A stretch of DNA of 46,797 bases, taken from contig CANRIG010000017.1 in the NCBI GenBank assembly GCA_947630595.1, positions 1 to 46,797 of the forward strand. Direction: 5' to 3'. The notes under the pieces were generated by a model, which saw only the letters and a program-made list of their open reading frames with translations, was not told the origin of the DNA and searched no databases. How positions within the stretch are numbered: the first letter of the stretch is position 1; each line of letters opens with the position of its first letter. This stretch comes from an uncultured Lachnospiraceae bacterium (GTDB lineage: Bacteria > Bacillota > Clostridia > Lachnospirales > Lachnospiraceae). Shown piece after piece: positions 752 through 11,870 of the stretch. Position numbers and translations under genes: made by a program.

Positions 752-2227
752 TCAGATTATAACTGCACCCAGAATTTTTACATTCCGATCCGCAGCCATC
801 TTGCTTTCCTGACAGATCAGGCGGGCAGATGAAACATCTTTTTTCTCTATAAACAAAACCCCGTCGCAATCATTTAATTCTTCCAAAGCGGAAGCATCAA
901 AGATCAATTGACGATAGTCTGAGAAAACAACGCCGTTTATTCCTTTCACAACCGCAGTGCTTACTGCTTTCGCATCCTGCGCTGCAATTGTGCCGGCTAC
1001 CATAATATGAGGCAATCCCTCTTTAGGGGAAATCGCTGTCTTTACATTCTCTGACACAATTTTGATTTGCTCATCGTAAGGGACATTTGCATAAACCCCT
1101 TCTCCCAGCCGCTGGAACCAGCGGTCGAGAAAACCAAACAATCTCTTACTGTCGGCGGGCTCTATGACACGTCCCAGCAATCGCATGCCAAACTTGTTTT
1201 CAAAATTCTCTGTGCTGCGGATTTTATCCCTCATGAGGAACAATACAATCAAAACAAGTCCCGCCAGAAACGCTCCCAGTACCAGGCCCAACCCAGCATA
1301 TTTCACACCGGATTCAACCGGACTGGAAAGAACCGGAGCGCCGAGTATCTGAGTGGTATCCGATGCTGCAAGATTATTTGCATAGGTTTCCGCCTCTGTC
1401 CGCAGCGCGTTCAGACTTTGTACCGCCGTCGTATAATCATTCAGTATCTTTGTCTGATACTCCTGAATAGCCTCATCCTGACGCTCTGAAACTCCGGAAG
1501 CCAGCACCGTCAGAGTGTGAGTTCCTATCTTCTGCAGTTCCTTGCTGTAAGAGAGAACCCCTTCCATGATTACTTCCATATACGTTTCACAGACATCCTT
1601 GCTGTCGGATGCAATCCGTATCTGGAAGACTCTTGGGTCAGACGATCTGGCAACGGTCTCAACTGCATCGTCCGTTCCGTCTGTGCGGCCGCCCGGATTA
1701 TCGCTGCCTGCGGAAAATGTCAGCAAATACTGCAAATCGGAAATCGGGATATCGGCATCCGCCTCGTAAAGCCATTCAGCCAGACGTCCATCGGAAACAT
1801 AAGATTCATAGGCGACAAGCAGCGTATCCATCAGGCCATTTCCCGACGCCGTATTATTTGTCTCCAGAATGAATCTCACGGTTCCAATCTGAAGATGATT
1901 CGCATCCAGACGCATAACAACAGAATTTCTAATATACTCATCCTGTTTTTGTATGGTCTGAGTCATTTGTTCAATCCCTGACTGATAATACTGCAAACTG
2001 CCCGAATTGTCAATGGATGTTTTTTCCTCCGTTTCCGCTGCACCCAGCTCATTCCACTGCTGCAGTGCCGTCTGATTACTCTTTTCCGTAGCATAATACT
2101 TATATCCGCCTGCCAGCGCAGCCGCAATCAGCATAGCCGCCGCAATCCATCTCCATTTTTTCAGGCAGTAAAACAACAGATCTATCAGATTTATTTCTTC
2201 TTCATAGCAATTTTCATTTGCACTCAT
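752..2227 (-). CDS. Wzz/YveK-type polysaccharide co-polymerase with degenerate kinase-like C-terminus
   Basis: This 491-residue membrane protein is likely to set polysaccharide chain length or couple polymerisation to export. It has the Wzz layout: a short cytoplasmic N-terminus, a first membrane segment at about residues 26-45, a large extracytoplasmic region with helical and coiled-coil character, and a second membrane segment at about 308-332. Unlike a simple Wzz it then continues for about 155 cytoplasmic residues. That tail (about 385-491) has the outline of a BY-kinase/ParA-like domain, with a beta strand before the usual P-loop place (HIMVAGTIAAQDAK) and a closing strand (NVKILGAVII). 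It has no GxxGxGK[ST] Walker A motif, so ATP binding is doubtful. The gene starts 17 bp after the dehydratase gene and is the last gene of the locus. A G-rich ribosome site (GGGGAG) precedes the ATG at some distance. The family call is firm; the pseudokinase reading is inference. Confidence 0.82.
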   Translation of the reverse strand: MSANENCYEEEINLIDLLFYCLKKWRWIAAAMLIAAALAGGYKYYATEKSNQTALQQWNELGAAETEEKTSIDNSGSLQYYQSGIEQMTQTIQKQDEYIRNSVVMRLDANHLQIGTVRFILETNNTASGNGLMDTLLVAYESYVSDGRLAEWLYEADADIPISDLQYLLTFSAGSDNPGGRTDGTDDAVETVARSSDPRVFQIRIASDSKDVCETYMEVIMEGVLSYSKELQKIGTHTLTVLASGVSERQDEAIQEYQTKILNDYTTAVQSLNALRTEAETYANNLAASDTTQILGAPVLSSPVESGVKYAGLGLVLGAFLAGLVLIVLFLMRDKIRSTENFENKFGMRLLGRVIEPADSKRLFGFLDRWFQRLGEGVYANVPYDEQIKIVSENVKTAISPKEGLPHIMVAGTIAAQDAKAVSTAVVKGINGVVFSDYRQLIFDASALEELNDCDGVLFIEKKDVSSARLICQESKMAADRNVKILGAVII

Positions 2228-2244: not shown

Positions 2245-4092
2245 TCACATATGATCTATCTGATATGTCGGCACAATTTTCTTTACCTCTTCTTTAATAT
2301 CATCTACGTCATTATTACAGAGTTTCTTCAAATTGTCAAGCTGAGCCATGAATTTTTCTTCATCAAATTCAATCGGCTTCCCGACAAAAATCCGCTGATT
2401 TCCCGTTTTTTGCAGCCCTTCTTCAGCCATCAGCAGCTCCTCATAAAGTTTTTCCCCGGGGCGCAGGCCGGTAAATTCTATTTGAATGTCCTCTCCTACC
2501 CTGAGGCCGGATAGCTGAATCAAATTTTTTGCCAGGTCGACGATTTTTACCGGTTCTCCCATGTCGAGGACAAAAATTTCACCGCCCTTGGCCTGGGCGC
2601 CTGCCTGCAAAACCAGAGAAACCGCCTCCGGTATCGTCATAAAATAGCGGATAATATCCGGGTGCGTAACCGTTACCGGGCCGCCTTCCTCAATCTGCTT
2701 TTTGAAAAGCGGAATCACACTGCCATTGCTCCCCAGCACATTTCCGAACCGCACTGCCGCAAATATGGTTTTGGAATGTCTGGCATACATCTGCACAATC
2801 ATCTCGCACATCCGCTTGGATGCGCCCATGATATTGGTCGGATTCACCGCCTTGTCCGTCGAAATCAGCACAAACCGTTCAGCGCCATACTTGTCCGCTG
2901 CCGCCGCCGTCTTGTAAGTGCCGAATACATTGTTCTTGATCGCCTCGTTCGGGCTGTCTTCCATCAATGGCACATGTTTATGCGCCGCCGCATGGTATAC
3001 GATTTCCGGACGGTATTTTTTAAAGATCGTTTCCATACGGTTTGTATTCCGCACAGAGCCGATCAGGACAACCAGATTCAGGTTCGGAAATGATTTTTTC
3101 AGCTCCTGCTGAATATCATACGCGTTATTTTCATAAATATCCAGAATGATCAATTTCTTCGGCCGGTACCCGGCAATCTGACGGCACAGCTCGCTGCCGA
3201 TGGAGCCCCCGCCCCCGGTCACCAGCACAATGCGATCGCGCACATACATCATGATTTCATGCAGATCCGTGTTTACCGGTTCTCTTCCCAGCAAATCCTC
3301 AATCCGTACTTCCCGCAGCTTTTCAATCATCACTTCACCGGTCACCATCTGATATATCCCGGGCAGAATTTTCAGATCGCAGTCCGTCTGCTGGCAAATC
3401 TCCACAATCTCACGCACATCTTTTTTCGGGGCGCTTGGCATGGCGACAATAATCTCATTGATCTGATATTTTCTGACACAATCGAGAATCTTATCTCTTC
3501 CTCCGACAACCTTCACGCCGCGAATGTACGTATTATGCTTTCTCTCGTCGTCATCAATAATACAGCAGATCTTCGCATCCAGTTTATCGCTGACTGTCAG
3601 CTCCCGCATCACCGTATTGCCCGCTTCGCCGGCGCCGATCACCATGGTTTTTCGCATATGCGGCCCATGTACCCAGCTGCGGTACAGATTCCGCAGGAAG
3701 CGATAGCTGAACCGGGTGACCGTCAGGCATAACACCAGCACGGCGCCATATAAAATATAATAAGAGCGGAAAATTGGTTTATAGCTGAAATAATAAACAA
3801 CAATATTGAATAAAACGCTGATTCCGCCGCCAATCAGGATATTCATCAGTTCCGTCAGGCTGGCATACCTCCATAAGCTGCTGTACAGCCGCAAAAAAGA
3901 AAAGATCAGTATGCTGACGATAATATTAATTGCCAAAACAGACTCCACCGAATTCGTATATTCCAGAGGAATCTGATTCCCGTCAATCCGAAAGCGGATC
4001 GCCAGAGCCGCGTAACAGGCCAGCGCCACGCTTGCGGCATCCAACATCACTAATAATATTTTATATAGCAGAAAAGTTTCCTTTTTTTTCAT
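2245..4092 (-). CDS. Membrane-bound NDP-sugar 4,6-dehydratase (CapD/WbpM/PglF family)
   Basis: The protein has 615 residues, normal for the long membrane-anchored dehydratases that convert UDP-GlcNAc to a 4-keto-6-deoxy intermediate for unusual surface sugars. Several hydrophobic helices fill about residues 8-125. A first Rossmann-like region has GAGEAG at 153-158. The catalytic SDR domain begins with the NAD(P) loop TGGGGSIG at 292-299. The active-site triplet TDK is at 412-414 inside STDKAVNPTN, followed by MGASKR at 422-427, as in this family, where Tyr of the classical YxxxK is replaced. The ATG is followed by an A8 run (codons 2-4), a possible slippage site. A consensus promoter with a G8 spacer lies 80-106 bp upstream, so this gene and the following wzz-like gene can be transcribed separately from the glycosyltransferase genes. 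The exact sugar product cannot be told from sequence. Confidence 0.93.
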   Translation of the reverse strand: MKKKETFLLYKILLVMLDAASVALACYAALAIRFRIDGNQIPLEYTNSVESVLAINIIVSILIFSFLRLYSSLWRYASLTELMNILIGGGISVLFNIVVYYFSYKPIFRSYYILYGAVLVLCLTVTRFSYRFLRNLYRSWVHGPHMRKTMVIGAGEAGNTVMRELTVSDKLDAKICCIIDDDERKHNTYIRGVKVVGGRDKILDCVRKYQINEIIVAMPSAPKKDVREIVEICQQTDCDLKILPGIYQMVTGEVMIEKLREVRIEDLLGREPVNTDLHEIMMYVRDRIVLVTGGGGSIGSELCRQIAGYRPKKLIILDIYENNAYDIQQELKKSFPNLNLVVLIGSVRNTNRMETIFKKYRPEIVYHAAAHKHVPLMEDSPNEAIKNNVFGTYKTAAAADKYGAERFVLISTDKAVNPTNIMGASKRMCEMIVQMYARHSKTIFAAVRFGNVLGSNGSVIPLFKKQIEEGGPVTVTHPDIIRYFMTIPEAVSLVLQAGAQAKGGEIFVLDMGEPVKIVDLAKNLIQLSGLRVGEDIQIEFTGLRPGEKLYEELLMAEEGLQKTGNQRIFVGKPIEFDEEKFMAQLDNLKKLCNNDVDDIKEEVKKIVPTYQIDHM

Positions 4093-4171
4093 TTATTTCT
4101 CATCCCTATCGTCTTTCATTCCTTAATCATGCGCAAAACTCTTCCTATAAAGAATACAGACACTATATTTC

Positions 4172-4198
4172 ATTATACCCCCCCCACGCAGTTGTCAA
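4172..4198 (-). promoter_or_regulatory. Candidate phase-variable promoter with G8 tract in the spacer
   Basis: On the minus strand TTGACA (4198-4193) and TATAAT (4177-4172) both match consensus perfectly. They are separated by only 15 bp (4178-4192), and 8 of these bp are an uninterrupted G run (4185-4178). Gain of one or two G would give the favourable 16-17 bp spacing; loss would weaken it further. Transcription would start near 4165, about 73 nt before the dehydratase ATG. This is the longest G/C run I noticed in the window. The promoter call is from sequence; phase variation is inferred by analogy with Neisseria porA and opc promoters. Confidence 0.75.
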
Positions 4199-4249
4199 GT
4201 ATTCCTCCCCAAAGTCAAAACAGAGATCTGGGCGAATAATGATACCTTT

Positions 4250-6193
4250 TCAAGCATCTGCACGCACATACAGGTAATAATTCTCCAAACCAATTTCCTC
4301 TATATCATATCCGGAAAGTATTAAAGGATGTAATGTAATAATATATTTGGGCGCAGAATATCCTTCCAGTCTATAAGGCCAATCACTAATATGAAAGTTC
4401 AAAAATGTACCCTGTATCTTACCATCAACCAATGTATCCGGCGAAATCAGTTCCTGCCAAATACAAAGCCGATATGGTACATCAAGATATGCCTCTGTTA
4501 CTTCTGTATCATTCATCCATGAGTCTGCTACCACTAAAACATCATCTTCCGTTTTTATCCCTTCTATCCCCTGAAAATAGCCTTCCAGCCGTATTCCATC
4601 TCTTTCCTTTCCTGCCAAAAACACCTTGACATCCATTTGGGTCTGATATGCTTTTACAGTACTGAAAAAGCAAAGACATCCCATCAAAAAAAATGTCCCG
4701 TTATAAAGAAGTTTTATATGCCGTTTCCAAACTGCAAATGCTCCCCAAATCAAATATAAAACAAGCATAATTTTAAAAAGAACTATTCCGTTTCTTGAAG
4801 CGAAAAAATATTGCAAAGCATATAAAGGTACCGCATCTACCTTACTGCCCATTGTTGGAGGTATGACTGCAATAAGCAATAATGCGCAAATAATATTCCA
4901 TTTAATATAACGAAACGTTATCCCCTTCTTTTGCAGTTTGTCAAATAAAGATAGAAATATTACAAGAAACGGGATCAGCGGATAATAAAAATACCGGTAA
5001 TGCATCCAAATTAATGTCTGACTGTCACTCGTAGCTGTCGTTGTAAAAGAAAAACACACTGCAGTTAGTATAAGCAGCCAAATCAAAGTTATAAACAAAA
5101 GAAGGTCTCGTTCTCTTTCTTCCAATTCTTTTACATATATAAGCGGAAATATAACAGGAAAAATTCCCCAAAAAATACAGCTGAACACAGCATACGTTAT
5201 GCACGAATTCAGATAACCTAAGTGATAAATCGTCCAAACTGCTCCAACCAAAAATATTGCCAGTACTCCAAGGAGAAGCAGACGGATACTCTGACGTTGA
5301 TATTTTTTTTTCGTATATTCTTTCATACATACGCCTAACGCCAGCAATGCAAAAGACGCGACTACAAGAACACCTATTATTTGTGAAAAAGTAAGCCCAC
5401 TGTAAGCAGCCAGATTATAAACTACTCCACGAAAACGTACAATAATATCTATAATCATAGAAGTAGCCCCATTATAACCTCTGACTAAATCTATCAGATA
5501 ATCTACTCCAAAACAAATCAAAACTGCTTCCAATAAAACTATGGTGCTTTTTCGCTTTTGTTTGAATGACCCCAAAAACAAGATTTGAATAATATAAAAA
5601 AGAAAAAAAGCCAGAACTAAACAATGTCCTATTCCTTTAATATAAAAAGCAGCACATGCCACAATAGAAAACACTGCCACACGCTTTATACTGTATTTGT
5701 CTTCTAATAAATATTTAAAAAAGAGATAAAACGTCCACATCACATAAGGATAATATAGATTTTCCTGCAACAATTTACTTGAATAAAACAACTCCGGAAC
5801 TGCAACACTAAAGACAGCGATAAATATAGCCAGCTTTTTATTTCTCAAAACCGCATCGGCCAATAAATACGCCGGAAAAACAACCGACGATATCAATAAT
5901 ACGTTAATCAACAGCATAGTATGATACGTCTTGCCAAAGTCTCCCCATAAATGTGCAACAGAAAGCAGCCACGGATAAAGCACATCTTTGACAACAGATG
6001 GACCTCCACGGTAATTAAGCGGCATCTTCCGCCAGAGCTCTTTGCTCCACTCCCAATATACAGGCTCATCAGCATATACAGTAAATGCTCCTGTCTTTAT
6101 CGCCAGATAAAAGCGTAGCAAAATACTGACACCAAATATAATAACCAGGCAAAACATAGGACTATATTTTTTTTGTTCAAATTTTTTAGCCAT
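4250..6193 (-). CDS. GT39/ArnT-like polytopic membrane glycosyltransferase
   Basis: This 647-residue protein has about a dozen hydrophobic segments followed by a soluble extracytoplasmic tail of roughly 110 residues. The first periplasm-side loop contains YADEPVYWEWSKEL, whose acidic DE pair sits where GT39/GT83-type enzymes keep their catalytic acidic residues. Such enzymes use polyprenyl-phosphate sugars outside the membrane to decorate a glycan. The substrate is unknown. The gene is visibly AT-rich compared with the polysaccharide genes at 9849-18952 and contains an A9 run (5303-5311) and an A8 run near its 5' end, which could slip. It follows the small 6227-6757 gene by 33 bp. The 157-bp gap after it carries the G8-spacer promoter. 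The family assignment rests on topology and the DE motif, so it is moderately sure. Confidence 0.7.
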   Translation of the reverse strand: MAKKFEQKKYSPMFCLVIIFGVSILLRFYLAIKTGAFTVYADEPVYWEWSKELWRKMPLNYRGGPSVVKDVLYPWLLSVAHLWGDFGKTYHTMLLINVLLISSVVFPAYLLADAVLRNKKLAIFIAVFSVAVPELFYSSKLLQENLYYPYVMWTFYLFFKYLLEDKYSIKRVAVFSIVACAAFYIKGIGHCLVLAFFLFYIIQILFLGSFKQKRKSTIVLLEAVLICFGVDYLIDLVRGYNGATSMIIDIIVRFRGVVYNLAAYSGLTFSQIIGVLVVASFALLALGVCMKEYTKKKYQRQSIRLLLLGVLAIFLVGAVWTIYHLGYLNSCITYAVFSCIFWGIFPVIFPLIYVKELEERERDLLLFITLIWLLILTAVCFSFTTTATSDSQTLIWMHYRYFYYPLIPFLVIFLSLFDKLQKKGITFRYIKWNIICALLLIAVIPPTMGSKVDAVPLYALQYFFASRNGIVLFKIMLVLYLIWGAFAVWKRHIKLLYNGTFFLMGCLCFFSTVKAYQTQMDVKVFLAGKERDGIRLEGYFQGIEGIKTEDDVLVVADSWMNDTEVTEAYLDVPYRLCIWQELISPDTLVDGKIQGTFLNFHISDWPYRLEGYSAPKYIITLHPLILSGYDIEEIGLENYYLYVRADA

Positions 6194-6831: not shown

Positions 6832-8016
6832 TTATTCCTGATTTTCAGAAACATATTCAATCAAATCTGAAAATTTTCTTTTGATCGTTTCCCACTGATA
6901 GTTCTCATCTATATATTTCTTCCCATTCTTACCCAATTCAGCTTTCAGGGTATCACTATTTAACAACTCCGATGTTTTCTTTTCAAATTCGGAATATCCT
7001 TTATACCAAAATCCGGCACGACTCTTTTCGCAATGCGCCTTTAATACCGCGCACACTCCGTTTACCAGTACAGGTTTTCCCAGGGCAAACGCTTCTAAGA
7101 CAACAAGTGAAAGGCTTTCATATCTGGAAGGAAGCGTTAAAAACTCTGCTCCGGCAATTCCGTTAAATTTATCGGTATCCGATACATAACCAAGCGAAAT
7201 AATGTCCCTCTGTTCTGGTATGCTCATACTTGCCTTTCCAAGCAAAACAAGTTTTAAATCACTCGGATGGGTCTTTTTATACTTCTGAAAATACTCAAAC
7301 AGCTCCTGACAGTTCTTTCCCTCGTCCATCCGGCCAACATAAATAATGTATCTATTTAAATGGAATTTCTTTTTAAAAGCATTTCCGGACACATTTGGCG
7401 GCACATCTACTCCGGCACCGCCGCACACATAAGGAATATAATAATTATTATACTTTTTTCTTACCAAAATACGTTCCTCATCTGTGTTAAAAAGAAATGC
7501 ACGCGGCTCTAAAAAAACAGAGCGAAACATTTTCATTTTGAGGAACGGTTCATCATGCGTACATGGAACAACGATCGCCTTTTCTTTTACCTCTCTGACA
7601 CCTTTCACCGTAGGATAATACAAATAAGTAAAAAACACATATACAGCATAATCCTCGCTATGTTCATGAATATACTGAATCAGCTCTGGTACATATGGCC
7701 CCTGTTCTTCCAGCCATAAATATTCTTCTGATTTTTTCAGATGACCATTTAAAAATTTCCCATTAATAATATTAAACTGATCCGGTATCCTGGGTCTTTC
7801 GACTGGAAACCGTCTGACTGTCACACCATTAATAATTTCTTTTTCATGTTCGTATTCATTGTTCCATGTCACATAATCAACAGCCTTAGTAGTCACCACC
7901 TCAACATCATATATATCCTGCATTAACTCTGCCATCTTCCGACACAAAAGTTCGGCTCCTCCATTTACTTCCAAACCATATCGCTGAACTACAAAGCAGA
8001 GTTTCTTTTTCATCAT
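6832..8016 (-). CDS. GT4-family glycosyltransferase (GT-B fold)
   Basis: A 394-residue retaining glycosyltransferase that should transfer an NDP-sugar to a growing glycan on the cytoplasmic side. The N-terminal VNGGAE (residues 17-22) is the nucleotide/acceptor-domain glycine loop. The donor domain starts at about 222 (IIYVGRMDEGKN), and the E-x7-E motif is E300-SLSLVVL-E308. The first two codons are both ATG, so the start may be 8016 or 8013. It is closely similar along its length to the product of 12182-13372 (shared QRYGxEVNGG, YLYYPxVxG and HDEP blocks), yet it is AT-rich whereas that paralogue is GC-richer. This suggests separate acquisition rather than recent local duplication. Acceptor and sugar are unknown. 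Confidence 0.92.
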   Translation of the reverse strand: MMKKKLCFVVQRYGLEVNGGAELLCRKMAELMQDIYDVEVVTTKAVDYVTWNNEYEHEKEIINGVTVRRFPVERPRIPDQFNIINGKFLNGHLKKSEEYLWLEEQGPYVPELIQYIHEHSEDYAVYVFFTYLYYPTVKGVREVKEKAIVVPCTHDEPFLKMKMFRSVFLEPRAFLFNTDEERILVRKKYNNYYIPYVCGGAGVDVPPNVSGNAFKKKFHLNRYIIYVGRMDEGKNCQELFEYFQKYKKTHPSDLKLVLLGKASMSIPEQRDIISLGYVSDTDKFNGIAGAEFLTLPSRYESLSLVVLEAFALGKPVLVNGVCAVLKAHCEKSRAGFWYKGYSEFEKKTSELLNSDTLKAELGKNGKKYIDENYQWETIKRKFSDLIEYVSENQE

Positions 8017-8603: not shown

Positions 8604-9806
8604 TCAACTATTTGTATGAGCTGACACATCTTCAAAAAAAGATATATACTTTTTTAAAACTACATCCCATGAATAATTATCAATAACAAATTTTCTCCCG
8701 CATTTACCCAATATATCCGCGTTCTGTGGATATCGCAAAAAATATCTTATACATTCCTGAAACTCCGGATAGTTTCCAAAGTATAATCCCCCATTTGCTT
8801 TTATTGCAAAATCCCGTGTCACATTACAATCGCTATGCACCAGTACCGGTCTTTTGCACAACCAGCTTTCCATTATTACCAGTGAAAAGCTCTCATTTTT
8901 CGAAGGCTGGCATAAAACGGTTGCAGCGGAGTAAGCATCATATTTATCCTGCTTTTCAACAAAGCCAAAGTCAATTATCTCGCCCCGCATTTCATCATCT
9001 ATGTGAATTTCCCCGCCGCCAATCAGCACCAGCTTTATATCGCAATTCTTATTGCGCATTTTAAATTCTCTAAAATAATTGCATAATGTATATACATTTT
9101 TCCCTACGTCTTTTCTGCCCGCATATAATATAAAAGGACTATTTATCCGATATTTTGCCCGAAAACGCACTGCATCAAAGGACACCTCTGTTTCCAGTCC
9201 TGTTCCTAGCACTGCCTGTTTAACGTGAGACAAATCAAATATAGCATTCGCAAGTTCATATTCTGGAGAGGAAAGATATATGACACCTGCCAGATTTCTA
9301 AAAACTTTTTTATATATATTCAAATAAACATATTTTTCATCATGAAAACAGGGAATGAGCACCGATTTCCAGGGAGCCTGCATAATACCATAATATGTAG
9401 TTCCAAACATATATGGTATAAAAACAAACAGTGTATACTCTGCATTATGCTCTTTAATATAGTTATACAATGCAGGACTATTGATCATTTCCCGTATAAA
9501 CAGCCGTTCTTCCCTGTCTGTTACCGCCATATTTCTCATCAATTTCGCCCTTACAGCATCAAAAGCCTGCACATTCCGAATTCTTACCTTAAAACGCCTT
9601 ACAACAACTCCTCCAACGGTCTCGACTCCTTCTTCGTAATAATTCGTATTCCAATCACTTGCAAACTGTTTCACACAGGTAGTAAGAATTTCCACTTTAT
9701 CCCCATTAAGAAATAACTGATGAACTAAATCCCGCAAAGCTGCCTCTGCACCTCCAGGAATATTTTCACCATACCAGGGAGTAACAAATCCAATCTTCCC
9801 TTTCAT
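8604..9806 (-). CDS. GT4-family glycosyltransferase
   Basis: A 400-residue GT-B enzyme. N-terminal PGGAEAALRDL (residues 18-28) is the acceptor-domain glycine loop, a donor-domain strand FILYAGRKDVGKN begins at about 225, and E-x7-E is E305-SFSLVIM-E313. It is related to, but clearly more distant from, the 6832-8016 and 12182-13372 products than these are to each other. The start is supported by AGAGAGGT upstream of the ATG. It is the first gene of the AT-rich cassette, following the ABC ATPase gene by 42 bp. Donor sugar and linkage cannot be assigned. Confidence 0.92.
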   Translation of the reverse strand: MKGKIGFVTPWYGENIPGGAEAALRDLVHQLFLNGDKVEILTTCVKQFASDWNTNYYEEGVETVGGVVVRRFKVRIRNVQAFDAVRAKLMRNMAVTDREERLFIREMINSPALYNYIKEHNAEYTLFVFIPYMFGTTYYGIMQAPWKSVLIPCFHDEKYVYLNIYKKVFRNLAGVIYLSSPEYELANAIFDLSHVKQAVLGTGLETEVSFDAVRFRAKYRINSPFILYAGRKDVGKNVYTLCNYFREFKMRNKNCDIKLVLIGGGEIHIDDEMRGEIIDFGFVEKQDKYDAYSAATVLCQPSKNESFSLVIMESWLCKRPVLVHSDCNVTRDFAIKANGGLYFGNYPEFQECIRYFLRYPQNADILGKCGRKFVIDNYSWDVVLKKYISFFEDVSAHTNS

Positions 9807-9848: not shown

Positions 9849-11093
9849 TTAGACACTTTCATTTTCTGCTAATAATTTTCCATCCACAGCCCAGCAATTC
9901 TCCAGTCTGCAGACCCCGATATCCCTCCGCTCAGACGCAATCTCAAACAACGCAACCTTGCGGATGTCGTCAAAGGCCGTCCCATCTTCCATGTGCACTG
10001 CCACATCCAGCATATACTTGGCCGGCAGCAGACAGTTGTTTTCTATCTTCACGGTAACCCTTCCCTGAGACTGCAGATCGACAAGGTGGCCGCTTTCGAT
10101 GAACGTATTCGTACCATACACATGAACGCCGTCTTCCCGGAAAATCCCAATGCCAAATATCCCCTGCAGTCCTGGTTCGACGCTTTCATAATCCATCTGT
10201 ATCATGAAAGGTTCCCCGCTCTGAAAAACAGCCTGCTCTTTTCTTTTATCGTCTGTCAGTTTCACATCCCGGAATCTTATTTTTTTATTGCCTTTACGGA
10301 TAGCAAGCGGGCTGCAAAACAAAGGAAGGCTCTCATCTCCCGGGGTCGTCGTGCGCGCGCTTTCCATCCATCTCAAATAATCCGTATGAACTTCCATCGG
10401 ATTACCCTCACTTTGAATCAGCCCCTGATTAATCCAGATCGACCGCTCGCAGATCCGTTCGATCTGAGAGAGCACATGCGAGACGATTACAATGGTCGTC
10501 CCTGCCTCCTTGATCTCGCGCAGGCGGTCAAAGCATTTCTCCTGAAAATTGACATCGCCCACCGACAGGATCTCATCCACCAGCAGAATATCCGCGTCCA
10601 CATTGATCGCCACGGAAAACGCCAGGCGCATATACATACCGGAAGAATAGGTTCTGACCGGATTGTCGATAAAGTTTTCCAGTTCGGAAAACGCAATAAT
10701 ATCATCCAGCCGTCTGTCTATCTCCTTTTTGGTCAGGCCGAAGATGGAGGCGTTGATGTAGATGTTCTCTCTGCCGCTCATATCCGGATGAAAGCCCGCG
10801 CCCAGTTCGATCAGACTCGATACGCGGCCCCGCATTTCGATGGTGCCGCTGTCCGGATACATGATTTTGGACAGAAGCTTCAGGGTCGTACTCTTGCCGC
10901 AGCCGTTATGTCCGATCAGGCCGATGGCCTCGCCTTTCTTTACGGAAAAGCTGACGTCCTTTAAGACCTCGCGGTCTTCGTATTTTCTCCGTCTTTTGGA
11001 AACAATTTTCTCTTTTATGGTGCTGCCTTTATCCAGATATACCTTAAAGCTCTTTTTCAGATGCTTTACCTCGATTGCATTCTCTGCATTCAT
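9849..11093 (-). CDS. wzt: Polysaccharide ABC exporter ATPase with C-terminal glycan-binding domain
   Basis: A 414-residue ATPase that powers export of a polyprenyl-linked glycan. Walker A is GHNGCGKST (61-69), the ABC signature YSSGMYMRL (149-157), Walker B ILLVDE (169-174) and the switch histidine H206. After the ABC domain (to about 245) a C-terminal beta-rich domain of about 165 residues follows. This is as in Wzt proteins that recognise a finished chain terminus before export; KpsT-type ATPases without a tail stop earlier. The ATG follows the stop codon of the permease gene with no gap (TAAATG), implying translational coupling. Composition is GC-richer than the AT-rich cassette that follows. 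Confidence 0.95.
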   Translation of the reverse strand: MNAENAIEVKHLKKSFKVYLDKGSTIKEKIVSKRRRKYEDREVLKDVSFSVKKGEAIGLIGHNGCGKSTTLKLLSKIMYPDSGTIEMRGRVSSLIELGAGFHPDMSGRENIYINASIFGLTKKEIDRRLDDIIAFSELENFIDNPVRTYSSGMYMRLAFSVAINVDADILLVDEILSVGDVNFQEKCFDRLREIKEAGTTIVIVSHVLSQIERICERSIWINQGLIQSEGNPMEVHTDYLRWMESARTTTPGDESLPLFCSPLAIRKGNKKIRFRDVKLTDDKRKEQAVFQSGEPFMIQMDYESVEPGLQGIFGIGIFREDGVHVYGTNTFIESGHLVDLQSQGRVTVKIENNCLLPAKYMLDVAVHMEDGTAFDDIRKVALFEIASERRDIGVCRLENCWAVDGKLLAENESV

Positions 11094-11870
11094 TTATAAT
11101 TCCTCCGCAAAATGCCGCTCCAATCGTCCGAATAAAAGCCAGCCCACAATCAGGAGCGCGAGCCCCAGCACGGCTGCCGTCATTAAAGTATTTAAATGCG
11201 GTATCTGCTTGTAATACAAAATATCCCGGTAAGCCACGATGACGGATGACATCGGGTTCAGCCAGAATATGGAAAGCAGTTCTTCCGGCACATTGTCGAT
11301 CGAATACATCACCGGCGTCAGAAACTGCCAGGCCATTGAGACGATGATCAGAATATGCTCCAGATCCCGGAAATATACCGTCAGGGCGGAGGAGAGAAAC
11401 GCGATGCCAAGCGCCAGCAGGTATTCCACCAGAATTACCGGAATCAGGAATGGGAGCGCCCTCAGGTTCACGCCCTTGCCGGAAAAAAATAGCACGGCAA
11501 ACACTACCACGAAAGAAAGCAGCATATTGGTAAGCTGGCAGGTGACATGCGAGATCGGAAGCACTTCCCGCGGAAAGTATATTTTTTTCACCATTTCTTT
11601 CTGTGAAATGATGCAGCTTGCCCCGCCTGTCAGGGAAGCGCTGAAAAAAATCCAGGGAATCAGGGCGACAAACAGAAACAGATAATAATCTTTAATCCCC
11701 GCCCGCATAATCACAGAAAACACTACCGTATAAACGCCCAGCTGAAGCAGCGGATTCAAAAAGGTCCACGCAAATCCCAGCACAGACCCTTTATACCGTC
11801 CCCGAAGATCTCTCTGGATCAGGCTGGAGATCATCGTGCGGTACTGATATATTTCCCGAAATTTATTCAT
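11094..11870 (-). CDS. wzm: Polysaccharide ABC exporter permease
   Basis: A 258-residue ABC-2 type permease with about six membrane helices, the usual size for Wzm/TagG proteins that form the channel for a lipid-linked polysaccharide. The N-terminal amphipathic start (YRTMISSLIQRDLRGRYKGSVLGFAW) and the LIPWIFFSASLTGG and PVMYSIDNVP blocks are typical. It is immediately followed by its ATPase gene. Upstream is a 311-bp gap filled largely by a 23-bp repeat array that ends 12 bp before the likely ribosome-site region (GGGGAACAGGA). A teichoic-acid TagG role is possible, but the ATPase tail favours Wzm. Confidence 0.94.
   Translation of the reverse strand: MNKFREIYQYRTMISSLIQRDLRGRYKGSVLGFAWTFLNPLLQLGVYTVVFSVIMRAGIKDYYLFLFVALIPWIFFSASLTGGASCIISQKEMVKKIYFPREVLPISHVTCQLTNMLLSFVVVFAVLFFSGKGVNLRALPFLIPVILVEYLLALGIAFLSSALTVYFRDLEHILIIVSMAWQFLTPVMYSIDNVPEELLSIFWLNPMSSVIVAYRDILYYKQIPHLNTLMTAAVLGLALLIVGWLLFGRLERHFAEEL

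Follow-up and report, generated by a model that had tools for sequence, protein, structure and literature searches.

In Neisseria meningitidis, the promoters of porA, fetA and opc carry unstable homopolymers between the -10 and -35 elements, which are thought to alter sigma-factor binding (PMC2791445). Intergenic positions account for about half of the variable repeats in N. meningitidis (PMC5084427), and PMC2831843 deals with tracts in coding genes. For Bifidobacterium breve UCC2003, coding G-tract slippage was described by deep sequencing, and the authors mention promoter-spacer G-tracts in passing (PMC9187656). GAA repeats of the Mycoplasma pMGA genes are named in a title cited in PMC2791445.

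Here we describe a promoter in a window of 46,797 nucleotides, which makes up all of contig C17 in a draft genome of 3.31 Mb and 151 contigs. Like those of porA, fetA and opc, it is a surface-gene promoter in which a homopolymer separates the -10 from the -35. It differs from them in that it belongs to a Clostridia-type anaerobe, has perfect hexamers and a G run flush with TATAAT, and precedes a glycan operon. B. breve UCC2003 is also a gut commensal with G-tracts, and promoter spacers are among the places named for them, but the cases worked out there are coding-frame switches of pilus genes, unlike the window promoter. Mycoplasma has surface-gene families in which each member has its own repeat-controlled promoter, comparable to the genomes of roughly 1 Mb described below, but the vlp and pMGA genes have other repeat units. 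The vlp switch is a poly-A repeat in the promoter region, the pMGA repeat switch lies outside the core-promoter spacer, and B. breve belongs to another phylum. Invertible promoters of gut bacteria provide reversible on/off control of surface genes inside a clone through recombinase-driven inversion between inverted repeats. The control proposed here would likewise be reversible and act on surface genes within one clone, but an invertible promoter was rejected as positions 3900-4500 of the window held no inverted pair of 12 or more (seed 9). Among the matches listed from the open-licence literature, we found no report of promoter spacers with poly-G tracts, either in Clostridia or in gut Bacilli, which leaves their absence unproven; within those matches, this would be a known mechanism in a group without a report.

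The promoter and its operon

On the minus strand, positions 4198 to 4172 read TTGACA, ACTGCGT followed by GGGGGGGG, and TATAAT in the 5' to 3' direction. The features of the locus are as follows.

4193..4198, minus strand: -35 hexamer TTGACA, perfect consensus (sequence)
4178..4192, minus strand: spacer of 15 bp, ACTGCGT plus G8 (sequence)
4178..4185, minus strand: G8 tract, flush with the -10 hexamer, proposed slippage element (sequence and run count)
4172..4177, minus strand: -10 hexamer TATAAT, perfect consensus (sequence)
4163..4167, minus strand: predicted transcription start region, 5-9 nt past the -10 hexamer (from promoter geometry)
4099..4107, minus strand: Shine-Dalgarno-like AGGGATGAG ahead of the dehydratase ATG (sequence, by eye)
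2245..4092, minus strand: nucleotide-sugar dehydratase, 615 aa, hydrophobic N-terminus (Pfam Polysacc_synt_2 and CoA_binding_3)
752..2227, minus strand: Wzz-like chain-length protein, 491 aa, presumed to be encoded second in the operon (Pfam Wzz)
4250..6193, minus strand: 647-aa open reading frame upstream of the promoter, without a Pfam match (ORF list and Pfam)
6832-8016 and 8604-9806: two group-1 glycosyltransferases, farther upstream (Pfam)
9849-11870: Wzt-type ABC transporter pair with a Wzt C-terminal domain, farther upstream (Pfam)

The preliminary description had reported perfect TTGACA and TATAAT hexamers around a 15-bp spacer with a G8 tract, and this agreed exactly with the sequence. 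Its statement that the tract was the only long G or C run also held, since nowhere in the window did a G or C run other than the G8 at 4185-4178 reach a length of 6. The promoter sits in a 157-bp intergenic gap between the stop of the 647-aa open reading frame (4250) and the dehydratase ATG (4092), at a distance of 79 bp from the dehydratase-Wzz operon. The Wzz-like gene starts 17 bp past the dehydratase stop, and its product matched Pfam Wzz slightly under the cut-off (E 2.1e-05; 25.2 bits against 25.5). The Polysacc_synt_2 dehydratase and the Wzz-like protein adjoin the two glycosyltransferases and the Wzt-type transporter pair, and the locus is therefore a surface-glycan locus with surface-related products. 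A simple promoter scan did not return the site because it permitted spacers of 16-18 bp only, and no alternative -35 or -10 partners that would yield 17 bp at this site were seen by eye. A structured RNA leader was rejected, as the window was without an Rfam family at the gathering threshold. At the level of sequence, a real promoter geometry ahead of the dehydratase-wzz operon was confirmed, and TTGACA-N7-G8-TATAAT places a homopolymer between a recognisable -35 and -10 as in phase-variable promoters of the porA/opc type.

Dinucleotide shuffles of the window contained on average 2.07 G8 runs and at least one in 82 of 100 shuffles, so the run by itself says little; it is the placement that is improbable. 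The own genome of 3.31 Mb had 26 distinct tracts of G7 or longer (six G7, fifteen G8 and five G9), 20 of them G8 or longer. Perfect TTGACA-N13..19-TATAAT pairs numbered 61, compared to 3 for the reversed pattern, and the perfect pairs are thus mostly genuine promoters. By hand arithmetic, the chance of a tract of G8 or longer falling in such a spacer on the correct strand was of the order of 0.002. The spacers of the 61 pairs were 15 bp in 2, 16 bp in 9, 17 bp in 41 and 18 bp in 9, which makes a 15-bp spacer uncommon (2/61, the window site being one). A second poly-G spacer promoter was found in the own genome at G000:C3:4990-5019 (L332, L008), with TTGACA, an 18-bp spacer ending in G9, and TAGAAT, and the gene behind it codes for a secreted-looking protein. 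As a separate observation, TA directly followed the G tract in 11 of the 20 tracts of G8 or longer, including both promoter sites, and the remaining tracts of this kind had no promoter recognisable by eye.

Orthologs of the dehydratase were sought among 47 genus genomes, the own genome included. Four other genomes had a dehydratase 82-86% identical over nearly the full length, and none of the four was found to carry a poly-G spacer promoter. Three of these were judgeable; in G036 the contig breaks off about 87 bp ahead of the ATG, so that the expected place of the promoter is itself missing there. Hence the window promoter is not common to the three judgeable orthologs, and a conserved ancestral element was rejected. 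The end of the same upstream gene was recognisable by eye in G042 and G041, and in G041 (L064) an extended -10, TATGGTATAAT, lies ahead of the dehydratase ortholog. In G036 (L065), we observed a G9 directly ahead of the dehydratase ATG, where a ribosome-binding site would be expected.

Recurrence of poly-G spacers and the genes behind them

A search of 397 family genomes with TTGACA-N6..13-G6-TATAAT returned 16 sites in 14 genomes, with none in the reversed control. Fourteen of these tracts were G7 to G11, counting one G7 site repeated three times in G257, and two were G6. When the -10 was relaxed (TTGACA-N-G8-TANNNT), there were 54 sites in 38 of the 397 genomes, two of them in the own genome, and again none in the reversed control. 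In five of the 54 relaxed sites the spacer measured 10-12 bp, a length at which a promoter is unlikely, so the relaxed pattern includes some noise. Spacers with C7 or longer anywhere were found in 6 of the 397 genomes. The preliminary description had considered such a promoter unusual in gut Clostridia, a view that the 38 site-bearing family genomes do not support.

In public species genomes, TTGACA-N2..16-G8-TATAAT occurred in at least 119 stretches. Among the 80 loci listed, 44 were titled Clostridia or Bacilli and the remainder mostly had other Firmicutes names, with Saccharibacteria, Spirochaetes, Streptobacillus, Helicobacter and others also present; a single rabbit-gut project supplied many of the titles, which makes the sample uneven. 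A wider pattern gave 202 matches, a few of them a second reading of the same site, across 35 genomes, which give no prevalence because the genomes were chosen from the listed loci as site-bearing; the reversed control was 0 in 35/35. The highest numbers were 26 in G443, 22 in G442, 22 in G453 (Streptobacillus notomytis) and 15 in G454, and others had fewer. Genomes of roughly 1 Mb had 15-26 poly-G matches. Per genome, such matches numbered one or a few in some that are Lachnospiraceae-like and exceeded 20 in some of around 1 Mb. In viral contigs, which were searched for near-identical variants, flush G8 gave 2 stretches and flush C8 none, and a gap after G8 gave 8 stretches, 2 being the flush loci again. 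Two further observations concern layout and leaders. Several copies in G443 (L283 and other rows) had a second layout in which the G tract adjoins the -35 (TTGACA-CT-Gn-TGTTA-TATAAT and alike) with spacers of 14-16, and that genome has flush sites at 18-20 as well. The leaders after the poly-G promoters L107 and L119 resembled c-di-GMP riboswitches by eye.

These searches bear on the idea that the window site is a G run between two chance hexamers. The shuffles do predict a G8 somewhere in the window, and the relaxed family set has its share of spacers too short for a promoter, but both window hexamers are perfect and lie inside an intergenic gap of 157 bp, the reversed controls were empty in the 397 family genomes and in the 35 others, and the own genome has 61 perfect pairs against 3 reversed. 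Chance is therefore a very unlikely explanation. Still less credible is an assembly artefact in which the true majority tract length is other than G8: the genome is a draft of 151 contigs and homopolymers are error-prone, but such an error would alter the count and leave the architecture as it is, and independent assemblies show this architecture again.

The first genes behind the class sites were classified with a simple in-house rule for N-terminal hydrophobicity. From 109 sites with G7 or more, 15 of them without a callable gene, 94 first genes were obtained, and 72 of the 94, the window's dehydratase among them, were secreted- or membrane-like. Behind ordinary promoters, the corresponding numbers were 5/31 in a first control (38 sites, 7 without a gene) and 9/39 in a second control drawn from two class genomes (40 sites), a contrast that is partly confounded since the controls are mostly Clostridia and many class sites are from Bacilli. 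The 94 genes contain paralogs, and L144 and L269 occur in both sets. At 25 more family loci, 12 were positive by the hydrophobicity rule, or 11/24 after subtraction of one repeated site, which is a weaker bias. Pfam assigned 60 families to the 94 proteins, including BspA-type LRR (7), Listeria-Bacteroides repeats (4), InlB-like repeats (3), Ig-like domains, LPXTG anchors (2) and camelysin-like proteins (2); cytoplasmic families such as ABC transporter ATPases (3), and others, were also found behind poly-G promoters. Among L121-L200 and L254-L283, we noted BspA-type LRR, InlB-like and camelysin-like surface proteins as recurrent behind such promoters.

G tracts also occurred inside genes of the own genome. 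On contig C1 (L002, around 73988-74950), an aminotransferase open reading frame contains a G9 and an adjoining dehydratase homolog a G7 near its end, and both reading frames break within a few bases past the tracts. These breaks resemble coding-type contingency genes, and decay or assembly error would look identical.

Tract length and spacer length

Tract lengths were compared within groups, defined as at least two copies in one genome with the same hexamers and the same spacer remainder. Among the 146 matches listed from 30 genomes there were 18 groups, and the G count differed in 12 and was constant in 6. The eight genomes with a varying group comprised five titled Bacilli, one Clostridia (G446), one Hydrogenoanaerobacterium (G455) and one titled only 'bacterium'. 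Tract-length variation among related promoters of the class was thus found in other genomes than that of the window. Wider flanks were compared for 10 of the 12 varying groups. The G470 copies, with G9 and G8, were 90-95% identical upstream and 97-100% downstream over 60 bases, and the G442 pairs reached 92% upstream and 98% downstream, with other pairs there down to 30% and 50% in ungapped comparison. In G446, the sites C86:60-90 and C111:22-51 (L387, L388) had G12 and G11 and were otherwise identical over the sequence compared; the two lie at contig ends that would overlap, and this looks like one locus assembled at two lengths, or a sequencing error. The copies in G454, G459 and G443 had mainly the leader in common and little upstream (33-58% identity upstream in G454), and the G455 pair was weakly alike (58% upstream, 32% downstream). 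With such weak wider flanks, the copies in G455 and G454 need not differ through slippage alone. The differing copies are comparative evidence at the sequence level of tract-length mutability, and they give no rate.

The same comparison bears on whether the window site is a fixed weak promoter, in which the 15-bp spacer was selected to damp a perfect consensus and the G8 is stable on relevant time scales. A spacer off the usual length, a short tract and operon orthologs that live without the poly-G element all agree with this, but the G count differs in 12 of the 18 class groups, G470 and G446 do so with near-identical wider flanks, and a G run would be an odd means of fixing a length. We regard a fixed weak promoter as unlikely, although it is the strongest of the alternatives.

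The 86 poly-G sites among the loci listed had spacers of 14 bp (1), 15 bp (10), 16 bp (14), 17 bp (3), 18 bp (21), 19 bp (27), 20 bp (9) and 21 bp (1), and their G counts included G8 in 13, G9 in 45 and G10 in 18. A spacer of 17 bp was therefore present in 3 of 86 poly-G sites, in strong contrast to ordinary perfect promoters, where it was found in 41 of 61 (Fisher 1e-17). When one site per genome was taken (G8 or more, 30 genomes listed), a mean of 0.9/30 had 17 bp and the mode was 19. Ordinary perfect promoters in two class genomes had 17 bp in 14/25 and 72/90 of the listed sites of 14-21 bp, as did 27/40 fetched ordinary promoters of class genomes. The relaxed family set also had few 17-bp spacers relative to ordinary promoters (5/54 vs 41/61; Fisher 8e-11), and a dip at 17 relative to 16 bp was absent in that set (16:6, 17:5, 18:10, 19:17).

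On one reading of this distribution, the majority state differs from the optimum by one or two slips and the default is low, and 17 bp would be avoided as being the ON state, on that reading only. Alternatively, the poly-G spacer may shift the optimum to 18-19; the porA promoter is reportedly strongest at 18 bp. The 15-bp window promoter, judged from its spacer, should be weak under both. The preliminary description had proposed that G10, with a 17-bp spacer, would be the strong state, which is plausible, yet the class sites avoid 17 bp.

Spacer length also enters into the view that the G tract has a structural or regulatory role, for example as an A-form-like or regulator-bound spacer, through which the promoter would depend on supercoiling or an activator with no slippage switch involved. 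MerR-type promoters have spacers of 19-20 bp and show such a dependence on supercoiling or an activator. The class mode of 19 bp, the avoidance of 17 bp and the position of the tract, mostly flush with the -10 in the 35-genome scan although the pattern permitted other positions, would fit such an element. A G count that varies among related copies would, however, hardly be tolerable for a fixed protein site or helical phase, and C tracts occur in spacers too (the 6 family genomes above). We consider a structural element improbable, less likely than a fixed weak promoter.

A putative slippage-tuned promoter of surface genes

As judged from the sequence features and their recurrence, the window promoter is most likely slippage-tuned in the manner of porA and opc. 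We think it probable that the site is a real sigma-A promoter, that its G8 makes promoter strength slippage-prone and that it is a member of a class of promoters with mostly surface or secreted products. In the proposed mechanism, a housekeeping-type (sigma-A) promoter would drive the dehydratase-wzz operon, and replication slippage in the G8 tract would change the spacer length and hence the promoter strength. The assembled 15-bp state would be weak or off, and the gain of one to three G would give 16-18 bp and more transcription. A change in tract length could then make cells unlike in their amounts of sugar precursor and chain-length protein. We infer slippage at the window tract, a resulting change in transcription and any consequence for the glycan; with G8, the tract is among the shorter ones of the class, and less slippage is expected at short tracts. 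The switch proposed in the preliminary description is thus supported in part, by a promoter geometry ahead of the operon and a recurring class of poly-G spacers in gut Clostridia and Bacilli, with tracts that differ between copies and first genes that are mostly secreted- or membrane-like; its supposed rarity in gut Clostridia found no support.

More broadly, and with somewhat less assurance, we favour the view that gut Clostridia, Bacilli and some Saccharibacteria possess an unrecognised, widespread set of poly-G-spacer promoters that tune surface proteins and glycans by slippage, with a majority state 1-2 bases off the 17-bp optimum and a low default, and that the window promoter is one such dial. 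If this is true, part of the surface diversity in dominant gut Firmicutes would come from single-base slips in promoters, a layer that is invisible to inversion-based surveys and could be read from G-tract counts in existing deep sequencing data. At the window locus, cells of the same clone would differ in the dose of the dehydratase and the chain-length protein, which could matter for phage adsorption, antibodies and mucosal contact.
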